NCBI GenBank assembly: GCA_946184295.1
Contig: CAMHEZ010000009.1
Span: 1 to 62,585, forward strand
Origin: an uncultured Clostridia bacterium
GTDB lineage: Bacteria; Bacillota; Clostridia; Oscillospirales; Acutalibacteraceae
Direction of reading: 5' to 3'
DNA length: 62,585 nucleotides
Of the stretch, positions 25,620 through 41,082 are shown piece by piece (positions within the stretch are counted from its first letter, which is position 1; each line of letters opens with the position of its first letter). Below the pieces are notes generated by a model, which was not told the origin of the DNA, searched no databases, and saw nothing but the letters and a program-made list of their open reading frames with translations. The position numbers and the translations under genes are program-made.

Positions 25620-27314
25620 ATGGAAAAATTTAAAGATCTACAGTACAAACGCCCCGATCCCCAGCAGGTGCAGCAGAATCTGCTCGCCTGCATTCAGCGC
25701 TTTGAGCAGGCAGCCACCTTTGAAGAGGCTCACGCGGCCTTTCTGGACAAATATCAGGCGCTGTCGGACGTGGAAACGATGTATACCATCGCATATATCC
25801 GCAACACGATCAACATGAAGGACGACTTTTACGATGGAGAAATTCAGTTTTTCAACGAGGCCATTCCGCAACTCACGCCTGTGGAACAGCAGTGGCTGGG
25901 CGCCATCGTCAAAAGTCCCTTCCGCCCGCAGCTCGAAGAACTCTATGGCAGCCATCTGTTCCACTCGGCTGAGGTGCAGCTCAAACTGACCGATCCCGCT
26001 ATCATTCCCGAGATGATCGAGGAAAACAATCTCTCGGCGGAATACTCCAAGACGGCGGCCGCCTGCTCCACGGAATTTCGCGGCGAAACCTGCAACTTCT
26101 ACGGTCTGCTGCGCCATATGCAGTCCACCGACCGTGAGGAACGCAAGGAGGCTTTCCTCGCGTGGGCCAAGCTCTACGAGGAAGTTTCGCCCAAACTCGA
26201 CGAACAATACGGCAAACTGGTGAAATTGCGCTGCACGATGGCGGAAAAACTGGGTTACGCCAGCTATATCGACTATATCTATCCCGCACGCGGCCGCTAC
26301 GATTACACCGCCAAGGAAGCCGCTGATTTCCGTGAGGCTGTACGCAAGTATATTACCCCTGTCTGTGACAAGATGTATAGAGAGCAAGCCGAGAGATTGG
26401 GCATTGATAAGCTGCACTATTACGATGAGGAACTGGTGTTCCCGGACGGCAACGCGGTTCCGGTCGGCACGCCGGAGGAACTGGTGCAAAAGGCGCATGA
26501 AATGTACAGCGACCTCTCTCCCGAAACCAAGGAATATTTTGACTTCATGACCGAACACGAGCTTTTCGATCTGGTCACACGTGAAAACAAGCACCTGGGC
26601 GGCTATTGCACCTCACTGGCCGATTACAAAGCGCCCTTTATCTTCTCCAACTTCAACGGCACATCCGCCGATGTAGACGTCCTGACTCATGAGGCCGGTC
26701 ACGCCTTTGAATTTTACTACGCCTCCCGCCATTTGCCGCTGGCCGAGCTGGCGGGCTCTACCAGTGAGATCAACGAAATCCACTCCATGACAATGGAACA
26801 TTTCGCTTACCCCTATATGGAAAGCTTCTTCGGCGACAAGGCCGATAAATACCGCTATGCCCATTTCTGCGAAGCCTTGAAGACCATTCCCTATCTTGTC
26901 GCGGTGGACGAATTTCAGCACCGTGTCTTTGAAAACCCCACGGCAGGCCCTGCCGACTGGCGCCGTTTCTGGAAGGAAATCGAACAGAAATATATGCCCT
27001 GGCGCGATTACGACGGTAACGAGTTCCTCGAAAACGGCGGTTTCTGGATGCAGAAGCAACACATTTTCCTCTATCCCTTCTATTATATCGACTACGCCCT
27101 CGCGCAGATGGGCGCGTTCTCTCTCTTCCGCCGTCAGGTGGAAAACGGGGACGCCTGGCCGCATTATCTGACGCTTTGCTCCATCGGCGGCAAGTACGGC
27201 TATTTTGAAACGCTTCAACGTGCCGAGATTCCCGTTCCACTCAATGATGAGGTGGTAAAGACCAACGCAGCCTTCGCCGAGCAGTACGCGGCAGTATTGA
27301 AGGAAAAGATTTAG
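25620..27314 (+). CDS. M3-family oligoendopeptidase (PepF-like)
   Basis: Cytoplasmic zinc peptidase that degrades short peptides. At 564 residues it is normal for M3 oligoendopeptidases. The zinc motif is THEAGHAFEFY (HExxH), with a downstream Glu in the STSEINEIHSMTMEH region as third ligand. The late substrate-site segment HIFLYPFYYIDYALAQ is also typical. AAGGAGGAA precedes the ATG. It is transcribed alone, with its own promoter and a strong terminator. It could act on peptides brought in by the Opp-type importer 3 kb downstream, though this is only an inference from neighbourhood. Confidence 0.95.
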   Translation: MEKFKDLQYKRPDPQQVQQNLLACIQRFEQAATFEEAHAAFLDKYQALSDVETMYTIAYIRNTINMKDDFYDGEIQFFNEAIPQLTPVEQQWLGAIVKSPFRPQLEELYGSHLFHSAEVQLKLTDPAIIPEMIEENNLSAEYSKTAAACSTEFRGETCNFYGLLRHMQSTDREERKEAFLAWAKLYEEVSPKLDEQYGKLVKLRCTMAEKLGYASYIDYIYPARGRYDYTAKEAADFREAVRKYITPVCDKMYREQAERLGIDKLHYYDEELVFPDGNAVPVGTPEELVQKAHEMYSDLSPETKEYFDFMTEHELFDLVTRENKHLGGYCTSLADYKAPFIFSNFNGTSADVDVLTHEAGHAFEFYYASRHLPLAELAGSTSEINEIHSMTMEHFAYPYMESFFGDKADKYRYAHFCEALKTIPYLVAVDEFQHRVFENPTAGPADWRRFWKEIEQKYMPWRDYDGNEFLENGGFWMQKQHIFLYPFYYIDYALAQMGAFSLFRRQVENGDAWPHYLTLCSIGGKYGYFETLQRAEIPVPLNDEVVKTNAAFAEQYAAVLKEKI

Positions 27315-27865: not shown

Positions 27866-28627
27866 TTATATCTGTGCCGCAAATGCCATCGCCAGCCATG
27901 CCGCCTTATCCTTGCCGGTGGGATTGGCGACATTATCCAGACTCCGCGCGTCCCATTCGTCCGCGTCGAGATTATCCGCCGCGAAGAAAAAGGTAAAGAA
28001 ATCCTTCCCCCTGAATTGTGCGACCGCTGCCGCGGCCGCGCACTCCATCTCCACACAGACACAGCCCTGCGCCTTTCTGCGGGCGATTTTCGCGGGCGTC
28101 TCTCGGTAAACAGCGTCGGTGGTCCATGTCTTGCCCACGGTGTAATGTACGCCGCATTGTTCCAACAGTTCCGTGAAGGCGGCGAGATGTGTTTCATTGA
28201 CGGCAATTTCATCGGACGCGGGCAGATAGTGATAACTGGTACCCTCGTCGCGCAGCGCCGCGTTGGGAACGATAATGGAACAGTCTCCGATATCGCCGTC
28301 CAGCACGCCGCAGGAACCAAACAGGAGAATCGTTTTCGCCCCCATCTGATAGATTTCCTCGCAGAGCGCCGCGCAGACCGGTGCGCCCACGTCCATCATC
28401 ATCAGGCCGATGCGCCTGCCTTGATACTTCGTTGCGTAAACCGGCATTTCCATGTTGGCGGCACTGCGAAGGGCAATCTGCCCGCCCCCGTATCGCTCGA
28501 GCATACGTGAAAAGGTGCCTCGCTCAAAGCAGGAGACCACAATCTCCGGCATACCTGCCAAGGGTTCCACAAAATTGGACGGATTGAGGACTGCTGTCCG
28601 GTTTTCATCAAATTCTTCCAACAACAT
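27866..28627 (-). CDS. Nucleoside phosphorylase (PNP/UDP family)
   Basis: A 253-residue phosphorylase that splits a nucleoside with phosphate into base and ribose-1-phosphate. Seen: the phosphate segment near YQGRRIGLMMMDVGAP, the family core KTILLFGSCGVLDGDIG, and CVCVEMECAAAAAVAQF, whose MEME-like MEC motif contacts ribose. A following Asp (FFAADNLDADEW) resembles the base-binding end of uridine-phosphorylase-type enzymes. Purine or pyrimidine preference cannot be read with confidence. It is transcribed with the small lipoprotein. Confidence 0.88.
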   Translation of the reverse strand: MLLEEFDENRTAVLNPSNFVEPLAGMPEIVVSCFERGTFSRMLERYGGGQIALRSAANMEMPVYATKYQGRRIGLMMMDVGAPVCAALCEEIYQMGAKTILLFGSCGVLDGDIGDCSIIVPNAALRDEGTSYHYLPASDEIAVNETHLAAFTELLEQCGVHYTVGKTWTTDAVYRETPAKIARRKAQGCVCVEMECAAAAAVAQFRGKDFFTFFFAADNLDADEWDARSLDNVANPTGKDKAAWLAMAFAAQI

Positions 28628-28650
28628 AAAAAATATCCCCCTTTTTCTTT

Positions 28651-28679
28651 ATGATAGCATCATTTCTTCTTTTTGACAA
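28651..28679 (-). promoter_or_regulatory. Promoter of the nucleoside phosphorylase gene
   Basis: On the minus strand TTGTCA (28674-28679), 17 bp, TATCAT (28651-28656). Confidence 0.65.
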
Positions 28680-28681
28680 GC

Positions 28682-28724
28682 AAAAAAAAGCGGCTTCCCG
28701 GCAAATAGCACCGGAAAGCCGCTT
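28682..28724 (-). terminator. Rho-independent terminator of the LiaF-like gene
   Basis: On the minus strand AAGCGGCTTTCCGG pairs with CCGGGAAGCCGCTT with one mismatch, and eight T follow. Confidence 0.93.
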
Positions 28725-28731
28725 GATCGCG

Positions 28732-29436
28732 TCAGGAACGAATGACAAGACCGCCGAAATTCACTTGCGCTGCCACATGAATGGTGGGGGCGTTTTCATC
28801 CGAAGAAGAAGTGAATTGGTTTTCCACGCCGCCGAAGTTTGTTTCGGTCTGCAAATCCAGCTTGCAGTCGGGGGGCAGAATGATTTCCACGCCGGAAAAG
28901 GCGGCTTCCACCTCGATGGTTTTGTCTCCTTCTATCGTCGCGCCAGTCAGATCCAGCGTTCCCTTACCGAAAGCAACCTCCATGCGGCAGCCGTCAAATG
29001 CCTTGCCCTGATAATTGGGACTGACTTCGCCGAATGACACTTCATATTTCGGCAGAGAGCCGTCGGAAGTGGCGACCACCTCTACCGAGATGCTTTTCCT
29101 GTGAAAACGGTTGCCGAAAAACGCGTGGACAATCACGCTGACGCCGAACACAATGATGAGAATCGGGACAATCAGTTTGACCAAATCAACGGAAATGATT
29201 TGCTGCGCGTTGAGGAACAGCCCCGCGCCAAGCGCAATCAGCACCAGTCCTACCACCTTGTTGGAACCGCGTTCAAACAGCATCATCAATCCGGGCACCA
29301 CAAGGAAAATCGTCCACCACCCGTCGATAAAGAAGTCCGGGAGAATGTTGAAAACTTTCAGACAGTAGCACACGCCGATGGCTACCGCTACCAGTCCCAG
29401 AATCACAGAGGGCATTTTGCTTCTCAAATCTTTCAA
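28732..29436 (-). CDS. LiaF-like membrane protein
   Basis: A 234-residue protein. The best start is a TTG at 29436 behind AAGGAGA; an ORF extension to 29550 runs through the promoter. Three to four membrane segments fill the N-terminal half (SVILGLVAVAIGVCYCL; WWTIFLVVPGLMMLF; LVLIALGAGLFL; LIVPILIIVFGVSVIV). A repetitive beta domain of the LiaF C-terminal/DUF4097 kind follows (SFGEVSPNYQGKAFDG, VAFGKGTLDLTGA, NFGGVENQF). LiaF proteins restrain LiaSR-type envelope-stress signalling, but no two-component genes are adjacent, so the role is unassigned. Confidence 0.85.
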   Translation of the reverse strand: MKDLRSKMPSVILGLVAVAIGVCYCLKVFNILPDFFIDGWWTIFLVVPGLMMLFERGSNKVVGLVLIALGAGLFLNAQQIISVDLVKLIVPILIIVFGVSVIVHAFFGNRFHRKSISVEVVATSDGSLPKYEVSFGEVSPNYQGKAFDGCRMEVAFGKGTLDLTGATIEGDKTIEVEAAFSGVEIILPPDCKLDLQTETNFGGVENQFTSSSDENAPTIHVAAQVNFGGLVIRS

Positions 29437-29473
29437 GTGTATCGTCTCCTTTTGGAAAAAACTTCTATGGAAG

Positions 29474-29502
29474 AGTATAGCATATTCATTTGGATTTGTC
29501 AA
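29474..29502 (-). promoter_or_regulatory. Strong promoter of the LiaF-like gene
   Basis: On the minus strand a perfect TTGACA (29497-29502), a 17-bp spacer and TATACT (29474-29479). It lies entirely within the upstream ORF extension, supporting the TTG start at 29436. Confidence 0.88.
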
Positions 29503-29561
29503 TATATAAAGAATATTTTTGTAAATGATTAACAAAACGAAATTCCTCATTTCTCCGTTAT

Positions 29562-29590
29562 CACCCAGTTGCTATGACAGGCATACAATG
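29562..29590 (+). promoter_or_regulatory. Candidate sigma-K promoter for the amidase
   Basis: CACC (29562-29565), a 16-bp spacer and CATACAATG (29582-29590) fit the sigma-K pattern mACm-N15/16-CATAnnnTA except for the last base. Confidence 0.4.
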
Positions 29591-29621
29591 GGAATAGAAA
29601 TCCATTACGGAGGAATGTATC

Positions 29622-30155
29622 ATGCCAAAAATTTACTTAAGCCCGTCCACACAGGAATACAACCCTTATGTCATCGGCGGCGCCAGCGAGGAAACCAACA
29701 TGAACCGGCTGGCCGACGCACTGGTCCCTTACCTGAACGAACTGGGCATTGACTATGACCGCAACACACCCGAAATGACCGCCCGCACCTCTATTCAGCA
29801 GGCAAACCAGAACGGCGGCTACGACCTGTATCTGGCGCTTCACTCCAACGCCGCGCCGGAAGAATTTGCCGGTATGCTGCAAGGCCCCGACATCTACTAC
29901 AACCCCGCCAGACCCGAAAGCCGTCGCGCCGCCGACCTGATCGCGGAGGAATTTCGCAAGATTTATCCCCAGCCCCAGCTGGTAGACGTGCGTCCCACCG
30001 ACTATCTCGGCGAGGTGCTGCGCCCCAATTATCCCGCCGTACTGGTGGAGGTTGCCTATCACGACAATCCCGAGGACGCGGCATGGATTCTCAACAACTT
30101 CGACGCCATCGCACGAGCCCTGGCGAACGCCGTGCAGAAATTCGTCAATCCTTAG
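29622..30155 (+). CDS. N-acetylmuramoyl-L-alanine amidase (Amidase_3 family)
   Basis: A 177-residue single-domain amidase of the CwlC/AmiC fold that cuts the bond between muramic acid and L-alanine in peptidoglycan. Seen: the Glu in GGASEETNMNRLADAL, the zinc His in LYLALHSNAAP and the catalytic Glu in VLVEVAYHDN. The first His motif (DPGHGG in most members) reads LSPSTQEYN, a variant known from Firmicutes proteins of this type. There is no signal peptide or wall-binding domain, as in lytic enzymes released on mother-cell lysis. A strong GGAGG precedes the ATG. A terminator hairpin follows. Confidence 0.87.
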   Translation: MPKIYLSPSTQEYNPYVIGGASEETNMNRLADALVPYLNELGIDYDRNTPEMTARTSIQQANQNGGYDLYLALHSNAAPEEFAGMLQGPDIYYNPARPESRRAADLIAEEFRKIYPQPQLVDVRPTDYLGEVLRPNYPAVLVEVAYHDNPEDAAWILNNFDAIARALANAVQKFVNP

Positions 30156-30189
30156 AACGCACCGATCAGAAAAACATATAAAATACGCT

Positions 30190-30244
30190 GCCGCCTGCGC
30201 CGCGGGCTTTTTTCGGAAAGCCAAGCGACGCGGGCGGCCTTTTG
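30190..30244 (+). terminator. Probable terminator after the amidase gene
   Basis: GCCGCC (30190-30195) pairs with GGCGGC (30233-30238), with further imperfect pairing inside, and CTTTTGC follows. Confidence 0.6.
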
Positions 30245-30334
30245 CATATATCGTCACCGGTTGTGTGAATTGGCATATCTAATCAAACGGAAGGCGAAAA
30301 TATCGGATTTGGATAAAATAATTCCGTAAATCTA

Positions 30335-30363
30335 TTGATTTTTTTACGATTCTATGATAAAAT
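30335..30363 (+). promoter_or_regulatory. Promoter of the Opp-type importer operon
   Basis: TTGATT (30335-30340), 17 bp, TAAAAT (30358-30363). The leader to the ATG at 30618 is about 245 nt. It contains the 11-mer GATGTGCATAG twice (30461-30471 and 30552-30562) and the palindrome GAAGCGCTTC followed by CTTTTTT; no gene is visible in it. Confidence 0.55.
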
Positions 30364-30617
30364 ATCGTTAAACTACGGTTATTGGGGATGCTTGAAAAAG
30401 TATACTTTTCAAATTTTTCCGCCGCAGCTTGTTCTGGTATGTATTTTTGAAAGCGGGCAGATGTGCATAGGCCTGCTTTTGGAAATAAATTTCTTTGTGT
30501 TCCTTTTTGGCGTGCAAAGAGAAGCGCTTCCTTTTTTCCGGCGCGGCAGGTGATGTGCATAGACCTTTCGCACCGGACAGCATTCCAAATAAAATTGTAT
30601 TGGAGGAAAAAAACAAA

Positions 30618-32588
30618 ATGAAATTGCACAAACGCATCCTCAGCTTGCTGCTGGCAGTCGGCATGATCGCCGCTACTGCTGTCACGCTGACAAGCTGCAA
30701 GGGAAACAAGAAGGCCGAAGGTCAGGTTATCATCGGCTCTGACACGGAGGCAAACGGCGACTGGGCTTACGGTCTGTTCTCCGCCGGCTCCATCAACGCT
30801 ACCGATTCGCACGTCATTACGCTGACGGACGACTATACAACGGTAGCCAGCAATAAAGGCGGCGATCTGGTTATTAATGACACCATTGTCAAGAACTACG
30901 AGCGCACCGAAGACGCAGACGGCAACGCCACCTACACCTTCGAGATCAACAAAGGTCTGAAGTTCAACAATGGCGATCCTGTCAAAGCCGAGAACTTCCT
31001 TGCCTGGAAACTCTTCTCTCTCAGCCCCGCCGCCAAAGAGATGAACGCTACGGATTCAGACTACAACAAGATTCTCGGCGGCCCTGACTACCGCGAAGGC
31101 AAGGCAGACTATCTCCAGGGACTTCGTTTGCTTGATGAGTACAAGTTCTCTTTGACAGTCCTTGCCAAGGGATACGATGGCACCGATTATCTTCCTTATT
31201 ACCATGACCTTGCTTTTGCAAGCGTCCAAGCCGTCAATCTCACCTACTGGTTCGGCGAGGGCTGGTCTGTCAAAGACGACGGCGAAGGCGCTTACCTGAC
31301 CAACAGCAACGGCAAAAAGCTGACGGTTGCCGATATCGGCGACACCTTCAAGGAAGCACAGTACGCCACCAAAGACCGTGTGACTGCCGGTCCCTATAAT
31401 CTGGTTGATTTCGACAAGAGCGCCAATCAGATCACCCTTGAAGTCAATCCCAACTACGCAGGCGATTTTCAGGGGCAGAAGCCCGGTATTGAGAAGATCA
31501 TCATCGTCAAGACTGAACCCGACACCGTGATCGACACGCTCGCTACCGGCGGCATCCAGATTTACTCCGGCATTTCGGACGGTTCTGAGGTCAACGCGGC
31601 GATCGACTTGATTGACAACGGCACCATCGACAGCTCTTACTGTCAGTATGACCGTGCGGGCTACGGCTACTTTGCTTTCGCCTGTGACCTCGGCCCCGCT
31701 CAGTACAAGGAGTTCCGTCAGGCGGTTGCCCACCTTCTCGATCGCACCGAGTTCGCTAAGACCTTCTGTGCCGGCTGGGGCGGTGTTGTGCACGGTCCTT
31801 ATTGCACGGCTTTCTCTATGTATGACGACAGCAAAGACCTCTTTGCCGACAAGCTGAACACCTACAACTACGATCCCGCCAAGGCAGTGGAGCTCCTCAA
31901 GAGCGTCGGCTTCGTCTACAACAAGGACGGCAGCGATTATAAAGACGGCAGCGGTGAAGTCCGTTACAAGGAAGTTTCCGCTGAGGAAGCTGCCAACTAT
32001 GAGAGCTTCTGCGTCAAGAAGGGCGACAAGTACCTTATGCCCGCTACCCTCAACTGGGCTGCCTCCGAGAACAATCCTGTTGCCGACCTTCTTGTGACCA
32101 TGCTCGCCAACGGTTCCGCTACCAAGGAAGCCGGCGTGGAGATCAAGCAGAATATCATGACCTTCCCCGAACTGCTCAACTATCTGTACCGTCAGGACGC
32201 TTACGGTCTGGGCGGCGAATACTCGGTTCCCACTTATAATATGTTCAACCTCGCAGCCAGTTGGCCCAGTGTGGCGGCTTATGACTATGCACATCAATTT
32301 ACCACGAATCCCGATTATATCGCGGACGGCTACAACACCACCCATCTCTACGACGATACGCTGGATAAACTCTCCATCGAAATGCTTTACGGTGTAAAGC
32401 CCGGCGATTATGCCACCTACCTCGACAAGTGGCAGCAGTTCGTTATCCGTTACAACGAGCTTCTTCCCATGGTTCCGCTGTACTCCAACATCTATGTGAG
32501 CATTTATCCGAATACCATCAAGGGTTATGAGGAAGGCCCGTTCTGGGGCTTCGAAAGGGCTATCCTCTATGCCGAGTATGTTGGCTAA
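30618..32588 (+). CDS. Peptide/nickel-type ABC transporter substrate-binding lipoprotein
   Basis: Extracellular solute receptor of the SBP_bac_5 (OppA/DppA) family, 656 residues, somewhat long for the family. It starts at the ATG at 30618 behind TGGAGGA, giving the signal MKLHKRILSLLLAVGMIAAT with lipobox LTSC. Family segments include YTFEINKGLKFNNGDPVKAE, a central ligand-lobe region with TAGPYNLVDF, and a C-terminal PMVPLYSNIYVSIYP. The first gene of a five-gene operon in the order A-B-C-D-F. The ligand is probably an oligopeptide by family, but not shown. A hairpin follows the gene. Confidence 0.92.
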   Translation: MKLHKRILSLLLAVGMIAATAVTLTSCKGNKKAEGQVIIGSDTEANGDWAYGLFSAGSINATDSHVITLTDDYTTVASNKGGDLVINDTIVKNYERTEDADGNATYTFEINKGLKFNNGDPVKAENFLAWKLFSLSPAAKEMNATDSDYNKILGGPDYREGKADYLQGLRLLDEYKFSLTVLAKGYDGTDYLPYYHDLAFASVQAVNLTYWFGEGWSVKDDGEGAYLTNSNGKKLTVADIGDTFKEAQYATKDRVTAGPYNLVDFDKSANQITLEVNPNYAGDFQGQKPGIEKIIIVKTEPDTVIDTLATGGIQIYSGISDGSEVNAAIDLIDNGTIDSSYCQYDRAGYGYFAFACDLGPAQYKEFRQAVAHLLDRTEFAKTFCAGWGGVVHGPYCTAFSMYDDSKDLFADKLNTYNYDPAKAVELLKSVGFVYNKDGSDYKDGSGEVRYKEVSAEEAANYESFCVKKGDKYLMPATLNWAASENNPVADLLVTMLANGSATKEAGVEIKQNIMTFPELLNYLYRQDAYGLGGEYSVPTYNMFNLAASWPSVAAYDYAHQFTTNPDYIADGYNTTHLYDDTLDKLSIEMLYGVKPGDYATYLDKWQQFVIRYNELLPMVPLYSNIYVSIYPNTIKGYEEGPFWGFERAILYAEYVG

Positions 32589-32643
32589 AGCGCGAAGTAA
32601 TTTCTGATTTTCAGGCTTCCTAAAAAAGCCTAATTGATCGGCG

Positions 32644-32682
32644 AAGGGTCTCCTTCCTTACAATAGGCAGGAGACCCTTTGT
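32644..32682 (+). terminator. Intra-operon hairpin after the substrate-binding gene
   Basis: AAGGGTCTCC (32644-32653) pairs perfectly with GGAGACCCTT (32670-32679), then TGTGTG. It probably lowers permease and ATPase expression relative to the receptor. Confidence 0.75.
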
Positions 32683-32686
32683 GTGT

Positions 32687-32746
32687 TTAGTGATTAGTGG
32701 CTAGTGGTTAGCGGCTGGCCTCTGACCACTAACCACTAATCACTAA
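32687..32746. repeat. TTAGTG-type intergenic hairpin
   Basis: TTAGTGATTAGTGG (32687-32700) pairs perfectly with CCACTAATCACTAA (32733-32746); further TGGTTAG/CTAACCA pairing lies within. It resembles the elements at 15696-15715, 40194-40271, 41097-41137 and 43505-43517. Confidence 0.85.
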
Positions 32747-32778
32747 CAACCAAAAAGAACGGAGGTTGATTTGGATAT

Positions 32779-33798
32779 ATGAAAAAATACATTCTGAAAC
32801 GAATCATATATCTGATTATCGTTTTCTTTGTCGTCTCTCTGATGATGTATGCCATCTACAATCTGATTCCGAGCGACCCGGCCATGGTGCAGATGGAGCC
32901 CCTGCGCAAAACGCTCAAACCGGAAGAATGGCAGCGCCAGTATCAGGCACTGCGCGACCAGATGGGTCTGAATGCTCCGCTGCTGCAAAGATACGCCCGC
33001 TGGATGGGCTTCATGCCCGACGTCAGCGGCAAGTTTGAGGGTATGCTTCAGGGCAACTTCGGCTATTCTATCAGCTACAAGCGCGATGTGGTTGACATCA
33101 TCGCCACCCCCATGCTCAATACCATTATCCTGAATTTTGTTTCCACCATCATTACCCTTGCGATCACTATTCCGCTGGGTATCTATTGCGCGGTTCATGC
33201 CCGCAAGACCTCGGACAACCTGATTCAGGCCGGTACCGTCGTGGGCTACAGCCTGCCGACCTACCTCGTCGGTATTCTCTTCATTTTCCTCTTCGCGGTA
33301 TGGCTCAAAATCTTCCCCACCGGCGGCGCGAAAACGCCGGGTTCTACCTACACCGGCATTCTGGAATTTGGCGACCGCATGTATTACATGATGCTGCCGA
33401 TTATCGTGCTTGTCTTTACGGGTCTGGCCGGCATGACCAGAACCGTGCGCGCCGCGATGATGGACACCCTTTCGCAGGATTATATCCGCACTGCCCGCGC
33501 CAAGGGCTTGAAAGAGAAAGTTGTCATCTACAGCCACGCGTGGCGCAACGCGCTGCTGCCGGTTTCCACATCCATCATGGGCTGGATGATCAGCGTCTTC
33601 ACCGGCGGCTCGCTGGTCATTGAAACCACCTTCGCCCTCAACGGCACGGGCCGTCTCTACTGGTCGGCGCTCAACACCACCGACTACGAACTGGTGCTTG
33701 CCATGCAGATGTTCTACACCCTTGTCAGCCTGGTCGGCGTGCTGCTGACCGACCTCAGCTATACGCTGGTTGACCCGCGTGTCCGCATCGACAAGTAA
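32779..33798 (+). CDS. ABC transporter permease, OppB/DppB family
   Basis: A 339-residue membrane subunit of the importer. The N-terminus MKKYILKRIIYLIIVFFVVS is the first helix; further helices include TIILNFVSTIITLAITIPLG and the final LVSLVGVLLTDLSYTLVDPR. The cytoplasmic EAA loop that docks on the ATPase reads DYIRTARAKGLKEKVVIYSH. The size and order of segments are ordinary, in contrast to the partner permease. ACGGAGG precedes the ATG; it ends 17 bp before the next gene. Confidence 0.95.
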   Translation: MKKYILKRIIYLIIVFFVVSLMMYAIYNLIPSDPAMVQMEPLRKTLKPEEWQRQYQALRDQMGLNAPLLQRYARWMGFMPDVSGKFEGMLQGNFGYSISYKRDVVDIIATPMLNTIILNFVSTIITLAITIPLGIYCAVHARKTSDNLIQAGTVVGYSLPTYLVGILFIFLFAVWLKIFPTGGAKTPGSTYTGILEFGDRMYYMMLPIIVLVFTGLAGMTRTVRAAMMDTLSQDYIRTARAKGLKEKVVIYSHAWRNALLPVSTSIMGWMISVFTGGSLVIETTFALNGTGRLYWSALNTTDYELVLAMQMFYTLVSLVGVLLTDLSYTLVDPRVRIDK

Positions 33799-33815
33799 GA
33801 AAGGAGTCATCGAAC

Positions 33816-35690
33816 ATGAGTGAAAATCAAAAGAATACAACCAATGGCTCCGCCAAGCAGAAAAAGGAGTTCTTCCTCTCCCGCTGGATCAAGCGCCTCC
33901 TCTTCCCCAACAAGGAACTGGATATCTATGCGGAGGAGCAGATGCAAAGTCCGATGCGCATGGTAATCCGCAATTTCTTCTCCAATCCCATGTCGGTCAT
34001 CGCGCTGTGTGTCTTTATCATGATTGCGCTGTTTGTTTTCATCGCGCCGCACTTTGTCAAGCTGGATCTGGGCGAGCAGGACAGCACGCTGGTCTTTGTC
34101 TCCCCGGGCTACGACATGATGAAAGTCCCCGCTGACCTTCAGAAAAACGGCGTGGCGGACATCTCGGTCGGCCGCAACTATTCTGTCGGCGCCGACAAAG
34201 AAGGCAACGTCTACGTCTGGGGCAAGAGCAAGGTTACAAAGGTGATTGACCTTGCGGACATTCCCGACAATGTAAAGAATGCCAAGATCGTCAAGGTCGC
34301 GGCGGGCAGCGACCACGTGCTGGCTCTTGACAACAAGGGCACCGTTTACGCGTGGGGCAACAACCGCCTGAGACAGACAACCCTGCCATCTGAACTGATG
34401 ACCAACAACCGTTCCCATGAATTTGGTATTCGCGCCATTTATGCCTCCGATCAGTTCTCGCTGGTCATTACCGATGACAACCGGGCGATTCTCTGGGGCA
34501 ATGAAAACTTCGCTGACCTTTCCTACAAAGCCGATGAGCTCGACGGCCATGTGGTTGACGGCGCTGTCACCAATACCGCCTATGTGCTGCTCACCGACGA
34601 CGGAAGAGTGGTCTGCGGCAGCAACAACGCCTCTACTCCCGTTACCAAGATTCCCGCTGCGGCCGCTTTCCGCGTCAAGGCGATCACCGGCAGCAGCAAT
34701 ACGGCCGCCGCGCTGAAAGAGGACGGCAGCGTGGTGGTATGGGGTGCTTCCACCAAGGGCGAAGATAAGATTCCCGCTTTTTCCTCCAAGGCTGTGGAAA
34801 TCGAGGGCGGACGCTATCACTACACCGCCCGTCTGGAGGACGGCAGTGTGGTCAGTTGGGGCAGCAACCGCTACAAGCAGCTCAATGTGCCTGCTGACGT
34901 CACAAAATCCAACATCGAAAAAATGTATGTCGGCTCCTTCCAGAATTACGCCATCGACACTGACGGCAAGATTCACACATGGGGTCTCAAGGGCTTCCTG
35001 CTCGGCACCGACGGTCTGGGCCGTGACGTTTACGCCCGTCTGGTCAATGGCGGCAAGATGACAATGACCATCGGCGCGCTGTCGGTCGTCATTGAAATGA
35101 TCATCGGCATCATTCTGGGCGGCATCGCCGGTTACTTCGGCGGCGTGGTCGATATGATTATCATGCGTATCGCCGAAGTGGTTTCTTCCATGCCGTTTAT
35201 TCCCTTCGCCATGATTCTCTCCGCTGTTATGGGCACCAAGGTCACGGTGGAGCAGCGAATGTATATCATCATGGTGATATTGGGTATTCTGTCGTGGCCG
35301 GGGCTGTGTCGTCTGGTACGCGCACAGATGTTTGCCCAGCGTGAGATGGAATACGTGGTGGCTGCCAAGGCATTGGGCGTCAAGGAGGGCAAAATCATTT
35401 TCTCCCATATCATTCCCAATGTCATGTCGGTTTGTCTGGTTTCCATCACACTCGCCTTCGGCACCTCCATGCTGACAGAATCCACCCTTTCCTACCTTGG
35501 CTTCGGTGTGCCGCTGCCCACTCCCACATGGGGCAATATGCTCACCGGCGCCAACAACAGCATTATCATTCAGAATTATTGGTGGAACTGGCTGTTCGTC
35601 GGCGCCATCTTTGGCGTGGCCTGCATCTGCATCAACCTCATCGGCGACAGTCTGCGCGACGCGCTTGACCCCAAGGCCAACGGCAGATAA
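33816..35690 (+). CDS. OppC/DppC-family permease with an embedded seven-repeat RCC1 propeller
   Basis: A 624-residue permease, about twice the usual 280-310. Residues 1-56 are cytoplasmic and basic, and TM1 spans about 57-80. Residues 95-391 hold seven WG-type RCC1 repeats (YVWGKS 133, YAWGNN 178, ILWGNE 225, VVCGSN 265, VVWGAS 307, VSWGSN 346, HTWGLK 387), spaced 39-47 residues. The normal OppC core resumes at LLGTDGLGRDVYARL (396-409), followed by five helices and the EAA loop AAKALGVKEGKIIFSH. By the positive-inside rule the propeller lies outside, at the loop that faces the substrate-binding protein. RCC1 propellers are typically protein-binding folds. The reading frame is intact. Confidence 0.93.
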   Translation: MSENQKNTTNGSAKQKKEFFLSRWIKRLLFPNKELDIYAEEQMQSPMRMVIRNFFSNPMSVIALCVFIMIALFVFIAPHFVKLDLGEQDSTLVFVSPGYDMMKVPADLQKNGVADISVGRNYSVGADKEGNVYVWGKSKVTKVIDLADIPDNVKNAKIVKVAAGSDHVLALDNKGTVYAWGNNRLRQTTLPSELMTNNRSHEFGIRAIYASDQFSLVITDDNRAILWGNENFADLSYKADELDGHVVDGAVTNTAYVLLTDDGRVVCGSNNASTPVTKIPAAAAFRVKAITGSSNTAAALKEDGSVVVWGASTKGEDKIPAFSSKAVEIEGGRYHYTARLEDGSVVSWGSNRYKQLNVPADVTKSNIEKMYVGSFQNYAIDTDGKIHTWGLKGFLLGTDGLGRDVYARLVNGGKMTMTIGALSVVIEMIIGIILGGIAGYFGGVVDMIIMRIAEVVSSMPFIPFAMILSAVMGTKVTVEQRMYIIMVILGILSWPGLCRLVRAQMFAQREMEYVVAAKALGVKEGKIIFSHIIPNVMSVCLVSITLAFGTSMLTESTLSYLGFGVPLPTPTWGNMLTGANNSIIIQNYWWNWLFVGAIFGVACICINLIGDSLRDALDPKANGR

Positions 35691-35768
35691 GTTAAGAGAA
35701 AGGAGGCTTTCCGCGAGACGGTTGTCTGAGAGGCAGCTGTCTCACCAAGAAAGCGATGGTAAGATAAC

Positions 35769-36788
35769 ATGGAAGAAAACAAAGAGAAAAAATTCCTGCT
35801 GGAAGTCAAGCACCTGCACACCTTCTTTACCTCCCGCCGCGGCATCATCAAGGCAGTCAACGACACTTCCTATGCCGTGCGCGAGGGAGAAACACTGGGT
35901 ATCGTCGGCGAGTCCGGTTCGGGCAAGAGCGTATCCGCCATGAGCATTCTCCGTCTGCTCGATGAAAACGGCTACATCGACAGCGGCGAGATCATTTTTG
36001 ACGGCAGAGACCTCACCAAGATTTCCAAAAACGAAATGTATGAGGTCAGAGGCAATGATATTTCGGTCATTTTCCAGGAGCCAATGACCAGCTTGAATCC
36101 GGTGTTTACGATTGAAAAACAGATTTCGGAAGTGTTCATGATTCATCAGGGCATGGACAAGAAGGAAGCCGCCAGGCAGTCGGTGGAAATCCTGCGTTCC
36201 GTAAAAATTCCGAACCCCGAGATCGTGGCCAAGCAGTATCCCCACCAGCTTTCCGGCGGTATGCGCCAGCGCGTCATGATCGCCATGGCGCTGGCCTGCA
36301 AGCCCAAGCTGCTCATCGCCGATGAGCCCACCACGGCACTCGACGTGACCATTCAGGCGCAGATTCTCCGCCTGATGAACGAGCTTCAGGCCGAGCGCGG
36401 CACCAGCATTCTGTTCATTACGCACGACCTCGGCGTCATCAATCAGATGGCCGATTTCGTCGCGGTCATGTACTGCGGTCAGGTGGTGGAGAGCGTACCC
36501 GCAAAGGTACTGTTTGACCCCAAGACCAAATTCTCCCACCCCTACACCGAGGGTCTGCTGGTCTCCATTCCGCGCCTTGACACGCCCGCCAACGAGCGTT
36601 TGCAGGCCATCCCCGGCGCGGTGCCTCATCCGCTTGATCTGCCCAAGGGCTGCAAGTTCGCGCCCCGCTGCAAGTACGCAACCGACAAGTGCCGCGAATG
36701 CGAGCCGGAGCTGACCAAGATCAGCGACAAGCAGCAGGTCCGCTGCTTCTATCCCAATAAGGAGGAAAGACAAAATGGCACAAAATAA
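35769..36788 (+). CDS. ABC transporter ATPase, OppD/DppD family
   Basis: A 339-residue ATPase that powers the importer. Walker A GESGSGKSVSAMS, Q-loop VIFQEPMTSLNPVF, signature LSGGMRQRVMIAMAL, Walker B LLIADEPTTALDV and switch FITHDLGVI are all intact. The C-terminal Cys-rich oligopeptide-transporter extension (KGCKFAPRCKYATDKCRECE) may bind an iron-sulfur cluster, as proposed for this family. No strong ribosome site lies next to the ATG; GAAAGGAGG sits about 65 bp upstream. The end overlaps the next gene by 14 bp. Confidence 0.96.
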   Translation: MEENKEKKFLLEVKHLHTFFTSRRGIIKAVNDTSYAVREGETLGIVGESGSGKSVSAMSILRLLDENGYIDSGEIIFDGRDLTKISKNEMYEVRGNDISVIFQEPMTSLNPVFTIEKQISEVFMIHQGMDKKEAARQSVEILRSVKIPNPEIVAKQYPHQLSGGMRQRVMIAMALACKPKLLIADEPTTALDVTIQAQILRLMNELQAERGTSILFITHDLGVINQMADFVAVMYCGQVVESVPAKVLFDPKTKFSHPYTEGLLVSIPRLDTPANERLQAIPGAVPHPLDLPKGCKFAPRCKYATDKCRECEPELTKISDKQQVRCFYPNKEERQNGTK

Positions 36789-38346
36789 CGGCGAAAAGAA
36801 AATTCTCCTTAAAATCACCAACCTGAAGCAGTACTTCCCCCTCAGCACCAAGGGCATGTATGTCAAGGCCAACGACGGCATTGACGTCAACATCTATGAG
36901 GGCGAAACCTTCGGTCTGGTCGGCGAGTCCGGCTGCGGCAAGTCTACCTTCGGACGCACGCTGCTCCAGCTCTATCCGCAGACCGACGGCCGCACCATGT
37001 ACTACGGTCAGTCGCTCGACGAATTTGCGCCGCAGTACGTGCACGACACCATCAAAAATCTCCCCTCGCTGAAAAAGGAGCTGGTGAAGCTCCAGCAGAA
37101 GGAGAAGGACGCACAGGCGGCCTTTGACAAGGCATCCGCAAACGACCAAAACGCCAAAAGCGAGGCACTTTGTCAGGCCAAACGTGACGCTGACGCGGCA
37201 CTCTTCAATATTGCCAGCATCTTCGGCGGCTTTATCACGGTGGACAACTGCGCTCCCATTCAGGAAGCCTTCATGAAAGCGCGTTCCCATTCCGCCGAGA
37301 TTCGCAAGCTGCACGACCGTCGGCGCGTACTGGAAAGCAAGCTCGCGGACGCGGAATACATTCTGAAAAACAAGGGCAAGGGCGACAACAAGGTTTCCGC
37401 TCTTCAGAAAAGCATCGAGGAAGTGGACACCAAGCTGAGCGAAGAGCGCGCCAAGCTCGATGAGGCATTGAGCGAAATCGACAAAATGCGCACGCCTTAC
37501 GCAAATGACCCTGAGTTCCAGAAATATGAAGTCTATCGTGACGACGGCATTGACCTGTCCCGCCTGACCATCGAGGAAATGCGCAGCTTCCGCAGTGAAT
37601 TGCAGCTGATTTTCCAGGATCCCTATTCTTCCCTCAATCCCAGAATGACCGTTGGCCAGATCATCGGCGAAGGCATGGTGGCACACAAGTATTACAGCAA
37701 GAACAGTCCGCGTATGCAGGAGCGCATTCTGGAAATCATGACCAAGTGCGGCCTTGCGCCCTACTTCATTCACCGATTCCCCCACCAGTTCTCCGGCGGA
37801 CAGCGGCAGAGAATCGGTATTGCCCGCGCACTTTCCACGAATCCCAAGTTCGTCATCTGCGATGAAGCGGTCTCCGCGCTGGACGTGTCGATTCAGTCCC
37901 AGATCATCAACCTGTTGCAGGACCTGAAAGAGCAGAACAACCTCACTTATCTCTTTATCACCCATGACCTGTCGGTCGTCAAATATATCTCTGACCGCAT
38001 CGGCGTCATGTATCTGGGCAACATGGTGGAGCTGAGCGATTCGCAGGAGCTGTTTGACCACCCGCTCCACCCCTACACCGAAGCGCTGCTGTCGGCCATT
38101 CCCACCACCAATGTAGACGATGATCGCGAACTGGTCATTCTTGAAGGTGACATTCCCAGCCCGGTCAATCCCCCCAAGGGCTGCAAATTCCACACCCGCT
38201 GCAAGTACTGCACGGAGGTCTGCCAGAATATCACCCCTGAGTTCCGCGAGATCAGACCGAACCATTTTGTCGCCTGTCACCACATTCTCGGCGATACCTC
38301 GGATCTTCCTCCCGTAACAGAAGCAGGCAGCACTCAGGAATCATAA
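36775..38346 (+). CDS. ABC transporter ATPase, OppF/DppF family with coiled-coil insert
   Basis: A 523-residue ATPase where about 320-340 is usual. Walker A GESGCGKST is at 50-58; the Q-loop IFQDPYSSLNPRM starts at 279; signature FSGGQRQR 339-346; Walker B ICDEAVSALD; switch FITHDLSVV; C-terminal Cys motif KGCKFHTRCKYCTEVC. Between the first strands and the Q-loop, residues about 83-260 are extra: charged Lys/Glu/Ala-rich heptad-like helices (about 97-145 and 165-235) with a hydrophobic knob NIASIFGGFITVDNC between them. The catalytic motifs are intact, so the subunit should be active. AAGGAGGAA precedes the ATG inside the upstream gene. Confidence 0.94.
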   Translation: MAQNNGEKKILLKITNLKQYFPLSTKGMYVKANDGIDVNIYEGETFGLVGESGCGKSTFGRTLLQLYPQTDGRTMYYGQSLDEFAPQYVHDTIKNLPSLKKELVKLQQKEKDAQAAFDKASANDQNAKSEALCQAKRDADAALFNIASIFGGFITVDNCAPIQEAFMKARSHSAEIRKLHDRRRVLESKLADAEYILKNKGKGDNKVSALQKSIEEVDTKLSEERAKLDEALSEIDKMRTPYANDPEFQKYEVYRDDGIDLSRLTIEEMRSFRSELQLIFQDPYSSLNPRMTVGQIIGEGMVAHKYYSKNSPRMQERILEIMTKCGLAPYFIHRFPHQFSGGQRQRIGIARALSTNPKFVICDEAVSALDVSIQSQIINLLQDLKEQNNLTYLFITHDLSVVKYISDRIGVMYLGNMVELSDSQELFDHPLHPYTEALLSAIPTTNVDDDRELVILEGDIPSPVNPPKGCKFHTRCKYCTEVCQNITPEFREIRPNHFVACHHILGDTSDLPPVTEAGSTQES

Positions 38347-38384
38347 CCTGCTGTCTGACAGGCCCATCAACACATCAATGACAA

Positions 38385-38475
38385 GGGATACGCTGAATAA
38401 AGGCATCGCCGTCGATTCCGCACTGCGAGGATACGTCTTTGAGCGGTGCGAGAATCGACTTAATCAGCGTTTCCC
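38385..38475. repeat. MITE-like 91-bp imperfect palindrome
   Basis: The outer arms GGGATACGCTGA (38385-38396) and TCAGCGTTTCCC (38464-38475) pair with one mismatch; the inner arms GTCGATTC/GAATCGAC and GCAC/GTGC pair perfectly. There is no coding content. It may be a structured RNA element or a small non-autonomous mobile element. Confidence 0.65.
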
Positions 38476-38480
38476 TAAGG

Positions 38481-38516
38481 AAAGGCTCAGCAGACAATCT
38501 GTTGGGCCTTTCTTTT
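38481..38516 (+). terminator. Rho-independent terminator of the importer operon
   Basis: AAAGGCTCAGCAGA pairs with TCTGTTGGGCCTTT with G-T wobble, followed by CTTTTCCTCTTT. Confidence 0.85.
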
Positions 38517-38546
38517 CCTCTTTAAGAGATATCAGGAGGTGAAAAA

Positions 38547-38840
38547 ATGCTGTTTGACAAAAAGGTCAAGCGCGATATGGAAGTCATGAACGAGCGCAAC
38601 AAGCGCTATCTGGAAAGCCGTGAATCTGACGGGGCTAGTGATGATGCGACGGAGGCAAGTAACGACGAAGCCTATCAAGAAGCGATGGCACGCGCGGAGG
38701 AGTACCGCCGGCAAAATGATGACGCCGGGTTGGAAAAGGGCGATATTCCCGCGCTGATTCTCTCCGCGCTGCTGGTATTCGGCCCCATCATTCTGGTTCT
38801 GGCGGCACTGCTCGCGCTCGCCTGGATACTGCTTTCGTGA
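38547..38840 (+). CDS. Small membrane-anchored protein of unknown function
   Basis: A 97-residue protein. The first 65 or so residues are hydrophilic and charged (MLFDKKVKRDMEVMNERNKR, Asp/Glu-rich middle), and the last 28 (LILSALLVFGPIILVLAALL onwards) form one or two membrane segments, so it is probably tail-anchored. AGGAGGTG precedes the ATG at good distance, supporting expression. I do not recognise a family. It lies between the importer terminator and the pgk promoter. Confidence 0.7.
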   Translation: MLFDKKVKRDMEVMNERNKRYLESRESDGASDDATEASNDEAYQEAMARAEEYRRQNDDAGLEKGDIPALILSALLVFGPIILVLAALLALAWILLS

Positions 38841-38911
38841 GCTTTTTTGGTAATTTTTGTAAAATTTAAAATAAATTAAAATAAAAATTCCCGCAAACCG
38901 GCGGTTGCCAC

Positions 38912-38940
38912 TTGCAATATTGGGAAAAGTATTGTATAAT
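38912..38940 (+). promoter_or_regulatory. Strong sigma-A promoter of the glycolytic operon
   Basis: TTGCAA (38912-38917), a 17-bp spacer and TATAAT (38935-38940), 41 bp upstream of pgk. Confidence 0.88.
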
Positions 38941-38980
38941 CAAGCTACCAGCTTTTAAACATGAAAGGATGTATTTACCT

Positions 38981-40189
38981 ATGAGTTCTCTTCTGAACAA
39001 AAAGAGCGTTGACGATATCGACGTCAAGGGCAAGAAGGTTCTTGTCCGCTGCGACTTCAACGTCCCGCTCAAAAACGGCGTCATCACCGATACCAACCGC
39101 CTGACCGCTGCGCTCCCCACCATCAAGAAGCTCGTCGCGGACGGCGGCAAGGTGATTCTCTGCTCTCACCTTGGCAAGCCGAAAGGAGAGCCCAAACCTG
39201 AACTGTCTCTCGCTCCCGTAGCATCCAAGCTCACCGAGCTGCTGGGTCAGGAAGTCAAGTTCGCGGCTGACAACGAGGTCGTCGGCCCCAACGCAAAGGC
39301 CGCTGTCGCTGCTATGCAGGACGGCGATGTGATCCTTCTCGAAAACACCCGTTACAGAGCAGAAGAGACCAAGAACGGCGATGCTTTCTCCGAAGAGCTC
39401 GCTTCTCTCTGCGATGTGTTTGTCAACGACGCGTTCGGCACCGCTCACAGAGCGCACTGCTCCAACGTCGGCGTTGCCAGCAAGGTTGACACCGCTGTCG
39501 TCGGCTACCTCATTCAGAAGGAAATCCAGTTTCTCGGCAATGCCGTTGAAAATCCTGTGCGTCCCTTCGTTGCCATTCTCGGCGGCGCAAAGGTTGCCGA
39601 TAAGCTCAACGTCATCTCCAACCTGCTCGAGAAGTGCGATACCCTCATCATCGGCGGCGGTATGGCTTACACCTTCCTCAAGGCACAGGGCAAGGAAGTC
39701 GGTCTGTCTCTTGTGGACGTCACCAAGATCGACTACTGCAAGGAAATGATGGATAAGGCTGAGAAGCTCGGCAAGAAGCTCCTCCTCCCCATCGACACCA
39801 CCATCACCAAGGATTTCCCCGATCCGATCGACGCTCCTATCGAAGTAACCGTTGTTGACACTATTCCCGCTGATATGCAGGGTCTCGACATCGGCACCAA
39901 GACCGCTGAGCTTTACGCAGACACTGTCAAGTCCGCCAAGACCGTTGTCTGGAACGGCCCGATGGGCGTTTTTGAGAATCCCATCCTTGCCAAGGGCACC
40001 ATTGCTGTGGCCAAAGCACTGGCAGAAACCGAAGCTACCACCATCATCGGCGGCGGCGATTCTGCGGCTGCTGTCAACCAGCTCGGCTTCGGCGACAAGA
40101 TGACCCACATTTCCACAGGCGGCGGCGCATCTCTCGAATTCCTCGAGGGCAAGGAGCTTCCCGGTATCGCCTGCCTCAACGAGAAGTAA
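38981..40189 (+). CDS. pgk: Phosphoglycerate kinase
   Basis: Converts 1,3-bisphosphoglycerate and ADP to 3-phosphoglycerate and ATP in glycolysis. The start at 38981 gives [20 protein letters not shown] (402 residues); upstream ATG codons lie at or within the GAAAGGA site or the promoter. Seen: [39 protein letters not shown] and the nucleotide end [13 protein letters not shown] with [18 protein letters not shown]. It is followed by tpiA and gpmI; gapdh is not in the window. Confidence 0.98.
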
Positions 40190-40193
40190 TATC

Positions 40194-40271
40194 TTAGTCA
40201 GGAGTTAGGAGTTAGAAGTTAGGAGTTGTCTATCGCGCAACTGCAACAGATAATTCCTAACTCTTTGACTA
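40194..40271. repeat. TTAG-type intergenic hairpin between pgk and tpiA
   Basis: TTAGTCAGGAGTTAGGA pairs with TCCTAACTCTTTGACTAA apart from a bulge; AGTTG/CAACT pair inside. The left arm carries three GTTAG/AGTTAG copies. Confidence 0.75.
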
Positions 40272-40314
40272 AATCCGAGAAAAACCATATCACAAAAAAA
40301 GGACGGTATTTGAA

Positions 40315-41082
40315 ATGAACAAAGCTCTTCGCAAGGCTGTTATCGCCGGCAACTGGAAAATGAACAAGACCCCTGCCGAGACTACAGTACTGATTAATGA
40401 GATTGCGCCCCTCGTTAAGGACGCGGATTGTGACGTGTTGGTCTGCGTTCCCTATGTTGATCTTCAGAACGCGCTCGAAGCCACCAAGGGCACCAATATC
40501 AAGGTCGGCGCGGAAAACTGCCACTGGGCCAAGAGCGGCGCTTTCACCGCTGAGGTCAGCGCGGAAATGCTCACCTCTATGGGCGTGCAGTACGTCATCA
40601 TCGGCCACAGTGAGCGCAGACAGTATTTCGGTGAGACCGATGCAACTGTCAACGCCAGAACCAAGGCCGCCCTTGAAGCAGGTATGACCGCGATTGTGTG
40701 CGTCGGTGAAACGCTGGAACAGCGCGAGGCCGGTATCACCGAGTCCCTTGTCCGTGAGCAGACCACCAAGGCACTTGAAGGCGTGACCGTCGATCAGCTC
40801 GACAGAATCATCATTGCTTACGAACCCGTGTGGGCCATCGGTACAGGCAAGACCGCTACCGCTGAGCAGGCCAACGAGGTTTGCAAGATTATCCGCACGC
40901 TCATCGGCGAACTTTACGGCGCGGACGCTGCCGACAAGATGGTTATTCAGTACGGCGGCTCCATGAATGACGGCAACGCTGTCGAACTGCTCGATCAGCC
41001 CGACGTTGACGGCGGTCTGATCGGCGGCGCTTCTCTGGTTGCCACCAAGTTTGCCGCCATTGTCGCTGCGGCAAGCAGATAA
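40315..41082 (+). CDS. tpiA: Triosephosphate isomerase
   Basis: Interconverts dihydroxyacetone phosphate and glyceraldehyde 3-phosphate. At 255 residues it is full length. Seen: the Lys in VIAGNWKMNKTP, the catalytic His in YVIIGHSERRQYFGE, the catalytic Glu in IIAYEPVWAIGTGKTAT and the phosphate-binding end IQYGGSMNDGNAVELL with DGGLIGGASL. It is co-transcribed with pgk and gpmI. AAAGGACGG precedes the ATG. Confidence 0.98.
   Translation: MNKALRKAVIAGNWKMNKTPAETTVLINEIAPLVKDADCDVLVCVPYVDLQNALEATKGTNIKVGAENCHWAKSGAFTAEVSAEMLTSMGVQYVIIGHSERRQYFGETDATVNARTKAALEAGMTAIVCVGETLEQREAGITESLVREQTTKALEGVTVDQLDRIIIAYEPVWAIGTGKTATAEQANEVCKIIRTLIGELYGADAADKMVIQYGGSMNDGNAVELLDQPDVDGGLIGGASLVATKFAAIVAAASR

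Follow-up and report, generated by a model that had tools for sequence, protein, structure and literature searches.

Many bacteria have peptide importers of the Opp type, and what has been worked out about receptor docking concerns ordinary members only. Among type I importers, the maltose system carries a receptor-meeting domain in its permease, the P2 loop of MalF. For DppB and DppC, the available text of PMC12136057 describes the TM1-TM2 regions as periplasmic, builds the translocation pathway from TM3-TM6 rather than TM1-TM2, and proposes a sealing role for the scoop motif of DppB. Here we analysed a 62,585-nucleotide stretch of DNA from an uncultured Clostridia bacterium, the whole of which we call the window, encoding an OppC-type permease with an RCC1 propeller between TM1 and the GTDGLGRD motif. 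The original prediction knew of no described transporter of such architecture, and none was found in the literature searched, which covered few subscription journals and preprints. A literature match on RCC1-like proteins concerned, in its available text, unrelated proteins.

The importer operon and its OppC permease

The genes of the importer form one operon (Table 1), and these five genes, traced in related loci, kept the order SBP-B-C-D-F wherever the locus was of sufficient length. A receptor, OppB, and two oligo_HPY ATPases were present, as in OppC/DppC-type operons, and the system is an Opp4-like peptide ABC importer with OppC as its membrane subunit. The receptor lipoprotein had a lipobox-like LTSC by eye. 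Opp4B was the NCBIfam model closest to OppB, which scored under the Opp4B cut-off. OppC scored 287.5 bits against the NCBIfam equivalog Opp4C, under the cut-off of 350, and fell under the curated cut-off of every one of the 25 NCBIfam models listed. Terminator-like sites in the region were not in excess (9 vs a mean of 9.5 in shuffles), promoter-like sites numbered 10, where shuffles averaged 6.0 (sd 2.7), and no RNA family reached its gathering score in 28000-41000. Upstream of the operon, the window contained a Peptidase_M3 gene (25620-27314), a LiaF-like membrane protein gene with a LiaF-TM domain (28732-29550, minus strand), and an Amidase_3 gene (29622-30155); apparently glycolytic genes (by eye) lay downstream. 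Two Anaerococcus loci (L030 and L031) had a tandem pair of receptor genes ahead of OppB in their first 4.5 kb.

Table 1 Features of the importer operon in the window and, in the last row, OppC genes with another insert, numbered on their own loci.
Feature	Position	Strand	Evidence
OppA-type substrate-binding lipoprotein (SBP_bac_5), first gene of the operon	30618..32588	+	Pfam SBP_bac_5 106 bits
OppB-type permease, standard kind	32779..33798	+	Pfam BPD_transp_1 116.6, BPD_transp_1_N 40.3 bits
OppC-type permease with inserted RCC1 propeller, 624 aa	33816..35690	+	Pfam, NCBIfam, predicted model
TM1 of OppC, residues ~58-80	33987..34055	+	Hydrophobic segment 53-86; model helix 58-80, low confidence
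Seven-bladed RCC1 propeller of OppC, residues 98-391	34107..34988	+	Pfam, predicted model, fold comparison
OppC permease core, residues 392-624	34989..35687	+	GTDGLGRD at 397, EAA-type stretch
OppD-type ATPase, standard kind, 339 aa	35769..36788	+	Pfam ABC_tran 106.1, oligo_HPY 65.9 bits
OppF-type ATPase with helical insert, 523 aa	36775..38346	+	Pfam ABC_tran in two stretches, oligo_HPY
OppF insert, residues ~81-252, four long predicted helices	37015..37530	+	Alignment with insert-less OppF; pLDDT
Terminator-like stem, 18 pairs, after OppF	38477..38515	+	Terminator-like site prediction
YDG-type OppC, 516-691 aa	L100 4773-6323; L101 5012-7069; L102 4697-6772; L103 4509-6281		

The OppC reading frame was intact as originally described, and both Pfam and the predicted model bore out the proposed architecture, the TM1-TM2 loop being longer by about 300 residues. 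The permease core matched BPD_transp_1 (112.8 bits, cut-off 26.4) and OppC_N (36.6 bits, cut-off 23.9), and the search against RCC1 profiles found RCC1_2 (127.8 bits, cut-off 22) and RCC1 (39.6 bits, cut-off 21.7) repeats above the Pfam cut-offs. The RCC1-like domain PF25390, with a cut-off of 150 bits, fell short in the window at 135.6 bits, and scored 159.6, 140.2, and 132.8 bits in the three relatives scanned (L085, L087, and L092, respectively). A search of PHROGs gave weak RCC1 matches alongside permease matches. Structure prediction, which had been named as the analysis that could overturn the propeller, returned the seven-bladed fold of RCC1 repeat proteins; the permease half of the model had low confidence, and the fold-comparison rows from VIA-align spanned OppC residues 98-398 only. 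BLIP-II was the closest solved relative of the propeller. Among the cores without a propeller in one genome scan, the nearest were about 43% identical to the OppC core of the window.

The same loop has been filled independently elsewhere. In L100-L103 and L048-L050, some of which belong to the same genus as the window, OppC is about 516-691 residues long and has a YDG-rich insert at the position of the propeller, and the OppC of L099 has a third kind of insert in the same loop. These proteins resemble the OppC of the window in carrying a large insert at the same place, but they lack RCC1 repeats, and no Pfam domain was found in the loop inserts of the five scanned (L100-L103 and L099). The long-loop proteins without a propeller, both the YDG type and L099, branched outside the propeller clade in core trees, and the OppF proteins of L100-L103 had no insert, unlike that of the window. 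The OppC TM1-TM2 loop is thus an insertion hotspot. Within the window's genus, 6/18 genomes contained propeller-OppC and 4/18 YDG-type OppC, and none had both. Since such a pattern has a probability of ~0.16 by chance (hand calculation), we do not claim mutual exclusion.

Distribution, origin, and constraint of propeller-OppC

A scan of genome contigs recovered 32 related loci, of which 31 extended into the propeller; the other, L032, was a tail end from the same assembly as L014. Because of these 31 loci and the further genomes that carry the propeller, we reject an assembly artefact, and the concern that the insertion might exist in a single assembly is dispelled by the many that have it. 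Loci L001-L027 came from assemblies of rumen, gut, and similar samples, with best-segment identities of 61-91%, while L028-L031 belonged to Anaerococcus (38-40%), three of them being named strains. Identity to the window ranged among relatives from 84% down to 33% in the propeller and from 99% down to 47% in the core. Match spans of ~2300 bases had misleadingly suggested that the relatives were longer than the window protein. The frames as read, where untruncated, encoded 613-658 amino acids, and the excess most likely reflects a weak match in the adjoining OppB, as occurs in the window's own genome.

Genome searches covered the phylum, together with plasmid records. Propeller-OppC was present in 14/398 genomes drawn evenly from the phylum (a contig end truncates the start of the G363 copy), 22/295 genomes of the order (the copies in G637 and G606 incomplete), all four genomes examined in family f86, and 5/6 in family f40, with one propeller-bearing match per positive genome in each of these scans. 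One genome of the same order (G037) was unusually rich in matches, with 22 matched stretches, nearly all of the RCC1 kind, over many contigs. We rejected a plasmid origin, as none of the 3254 plasmid records with a match covered 80% of the query.

Phylogeny of the permease core alone placed all 37 propeller rows in one clade (support 100/98). An enlarged tree, from which seven near-duplicates were dropped and to which 16 of 17 further loci were added (L151 was too short), again united all propeller rows (46/46, support 100/99). The simplest reading of these trees is that the propeller was probably gained once. This single-clade origin, like the other fillings of the OppC loop and the accompanying OppF insert described below, was no part of the original prediction. 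Estimates of omega (NG86) were 0.06-0.41 for the propeller in nine of ten pairs of relatives, the tenth being saturated, and 0.006-0.13 for the core in ten pairs. The propeller is therefore under purifying selection and is less constrained than the core.

The helical insert of OppF

Aligned with OppF from the YDG-type operons, the window OppF had ~170 extra residues between the YYG strand and the GIDL/EEMR segment, which precedes the Q-loop. AlphaFold2 placed the helices of this insert at residues 96-119, 125-155, 160-200, and 204-242. Mean pLDDT in ten-residue blocks over residues 81-250 was 77-97, with 15/17 blocks at 91 or more.

We read the insert in other loci from how far Walker A lies from the Q-loop, with either a strict or a looser motif pattern. 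The strict pattern made OppF readable in 43/62 propeller loci, where the distance was 213-256 residues in every case, and the looser pattern added nine more (L028-L031, L088, L089, L144, L147, and L151), all with 219-227 residues. L088 had an additional OppF-like frame without the insert (50 residues) elsewhere in the locus. In the remaining ten propeller loci OppF was unreadable owing to contig ends, N runs, frame changes, or pattern misses. Independent control loci had distances of 49-50 residues in 4/36 with the strict pattern and 49-55 in 18/36 with the loose one. The loose pattern thus found the insert in 52/52 readable propeller loci and 0/18 readable independent controls. Of 21 control OppF proteins read with the strict pattern, only four (L100-L103) count as independent, because the other 17 (L117-L133, all 49 residues) had been retrieved as matches without the insert.

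An unbiased test of the association between propeller and OppF insert comes from scanning the 398 phylum genomes again. Insert-OppF was found in 13 of them at E 1e-118 or better, nearly complete in 11 and partial in G187 and G388, and 12 of the 13 also had propeller-OppC. The exception, G242, lacked propeller-OppC genome-wide at E 1e-120. It retains OppD and insert-OppF side by side, without adjoining SBP, OppB, or OppC, and with a neighbouring gene apparently unrelated to transport (by eye). In L134 (6221-8825), a remnant of OppD and insert-OppF, again with no SBP, OppB, or OppC beside it, is flanked (by eye) by a PLP-type synthase-like gene and a nucleoside-type ABC system. Two propeller genomes had no insert-OppF match, G405 because its contig ends beside OppC and G363 because an N run falls in OppF.

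Position and possible roles of the propeller

The original placement of the propeller outside the membrane follows from the established topology of the family and was borne out by homology to DppB and DppC, periplasmic between TM1 and TM2 in the available text of PMC12136057. The insert itself had no hydrophobic stretch, the Kyte-Doolittle maximum being 0.73 over 19 residues. The propeller begins ~17 residues past TM1, and its last strand ends at residue 390, ~6 residues ahead of GTDGLGRD at 397. By propeller topology, both ends would exit on the face of the BC/interblade loops, which should face the membrane. From this and the short linkers we infer a position for the propeller near the membrane and next to the outer gate.

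Loops on the membrane-side face were more conserved than those on the other face in 16 close rows (0.768 vs 0.650, p 0.0026), also without G, P, W, H, D, and N positions (0.752 vs 0.554, 0/10000 permutations). Over 30 rows the difference was gone with no exclusions (0.540 vs 0.526, p 0.35) and was seen when these positions were excluded (0.518 vs 0.422, p 0.0046). Eight other RCC1 proteins served as a control family, with values of 0.672 vs 0.659 under the same exclusions (p 0.44), 0.771 vs 0.725 unexcluded (p 0.19), and 0.750 vs 0.671 without G, P, and W (p 0.096). Since this family leans the same way when nothing or only G, P, and W is excluded, and has only eight rows from the window's genus with loops hand-anchored in six blades, the asymmetry may be partly general to RCC1 repeats, and we regard it as suggestive, not decisive. 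The eight control proteins (L152-L158, ~485 aa) had a hydrophobic N-terminal segment, next a stretch that was TPR-like by eye, and after it RCC1-type repeats with CG replacing WG. All 16 close rows share the blade-7 BC loop GSFQN of the propeller, and across the 30 rows its F, Q, and N are each conserved in 90%.

Our preferred reading, held tentatively and at somewhat less than an even chance, is that the propeller is a rigid, membrane-proximal platform for docking the receptor lipoprotein, with the OppF helices as a matched addition. Much as the P2 loop of MalF does for maltose-binding protein, the propeller, near the membrane and beside the outer gate, would hold the receptor on the transporter, while the helices on the inner side would perhaps tune or tether the ATPase. 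The receptor gene precedes B-C in loci of sufficient length. By eye, OppB looked ordinary in the stretch matching the receptor-contacting scoop of DppB, so the propeller would add to normal receptor contact. A mirror-tree comparison of propeller and receptor is not used as support because the two sets contradict each other (partial correlations of 0.55 for the 16 close taxa and -0.13 for all 30).

It is also conceivable, though unlikely, that the propeller binds some other extracellular partner (a wall polymer, peptidase, or surface protein) and anchors the importer near its source of peptides. BLIP-II binds an unrelated enzyme, beta-lactamase, and the propeller evolves faster than the core, as a partner-binding surface might, but in close relatives the better-conserved face points to the membrane. 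We consider it improbable that the propeller covers the outer gate as a lid or filter, restricting peptides or sealing the cavity like an enlarged DppB scoop motif. Its short linkers would put it near the gate, and sealing has been proposed for that motif, whereas the pathway runs through TM3-TM6 and not TM1-TM2 in DppB/DppC (PMC12136057, available text), and OppB appears ordinary at the scoop position.

The association of the two inserts, in all readable propeller loci, no independent control, and 12 of 13 insert-OppF genomes, would suit one regulatory or signalling device coupling outside binding to the ATPase or a cytoplasmic partner. Shared descent of one operon accounts for it without a functional link, however, and G242 keeps insert-OppF beside OppD without propeller-OppC. 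We consider such a device as improbable as the lid. A bolder form of the idea, also quite unlikely, is that the subfamily gained the outer propeller and an inner four-helix stalk once and together, as a matched pair forming a membrane-spanning reporting or tethering device; if true, the pump would connect binding events on the outside with the ATPase or with a partner in the cytoplasm. That the domain was captured once and retained without function seems scarcely credible. Other OppC lineages do hold other large inserts in this loop, but the propeller is under purifying selection, its blade motifs align in all 23 rows of one alignment of relatives, and among the matches listed in the phylum scan, where the best core-only match was 293 bits, no propeller-less core scored comparably.

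A clade in several Bacillota families with an outer propeller, measurably under selection, and an inner helical insert provides a natural experiment on receptor holding and ATPase tuning. A TM1-TM2 loop that takes whole domains is also useful knowledge for transporter annotation and importer engineering. The window system shares with the Opp/Dpp importers (OppC 8z21, DppC 8z1v; Opp4C) the permease core, OppC_N, the SBP-B-C-D-F set, and two different ATPases with oligo_HPY tails, and differs from them by ~300 more residues in the OppC loop and ~170 more in OppF. It is a variant of Opp-type importers and not a new kind of system. BLIP-II is a free inhibitor, whereas the propeller of the window is an insertion within a membrane permease, which tethers it at either end. 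The P2 loop of MalF is, like the propeller, a folded domain in an extracytoplasmic permease loop, but of a different fold and in a different loop, and it meets its receptor, as the propeller may do by analogy.
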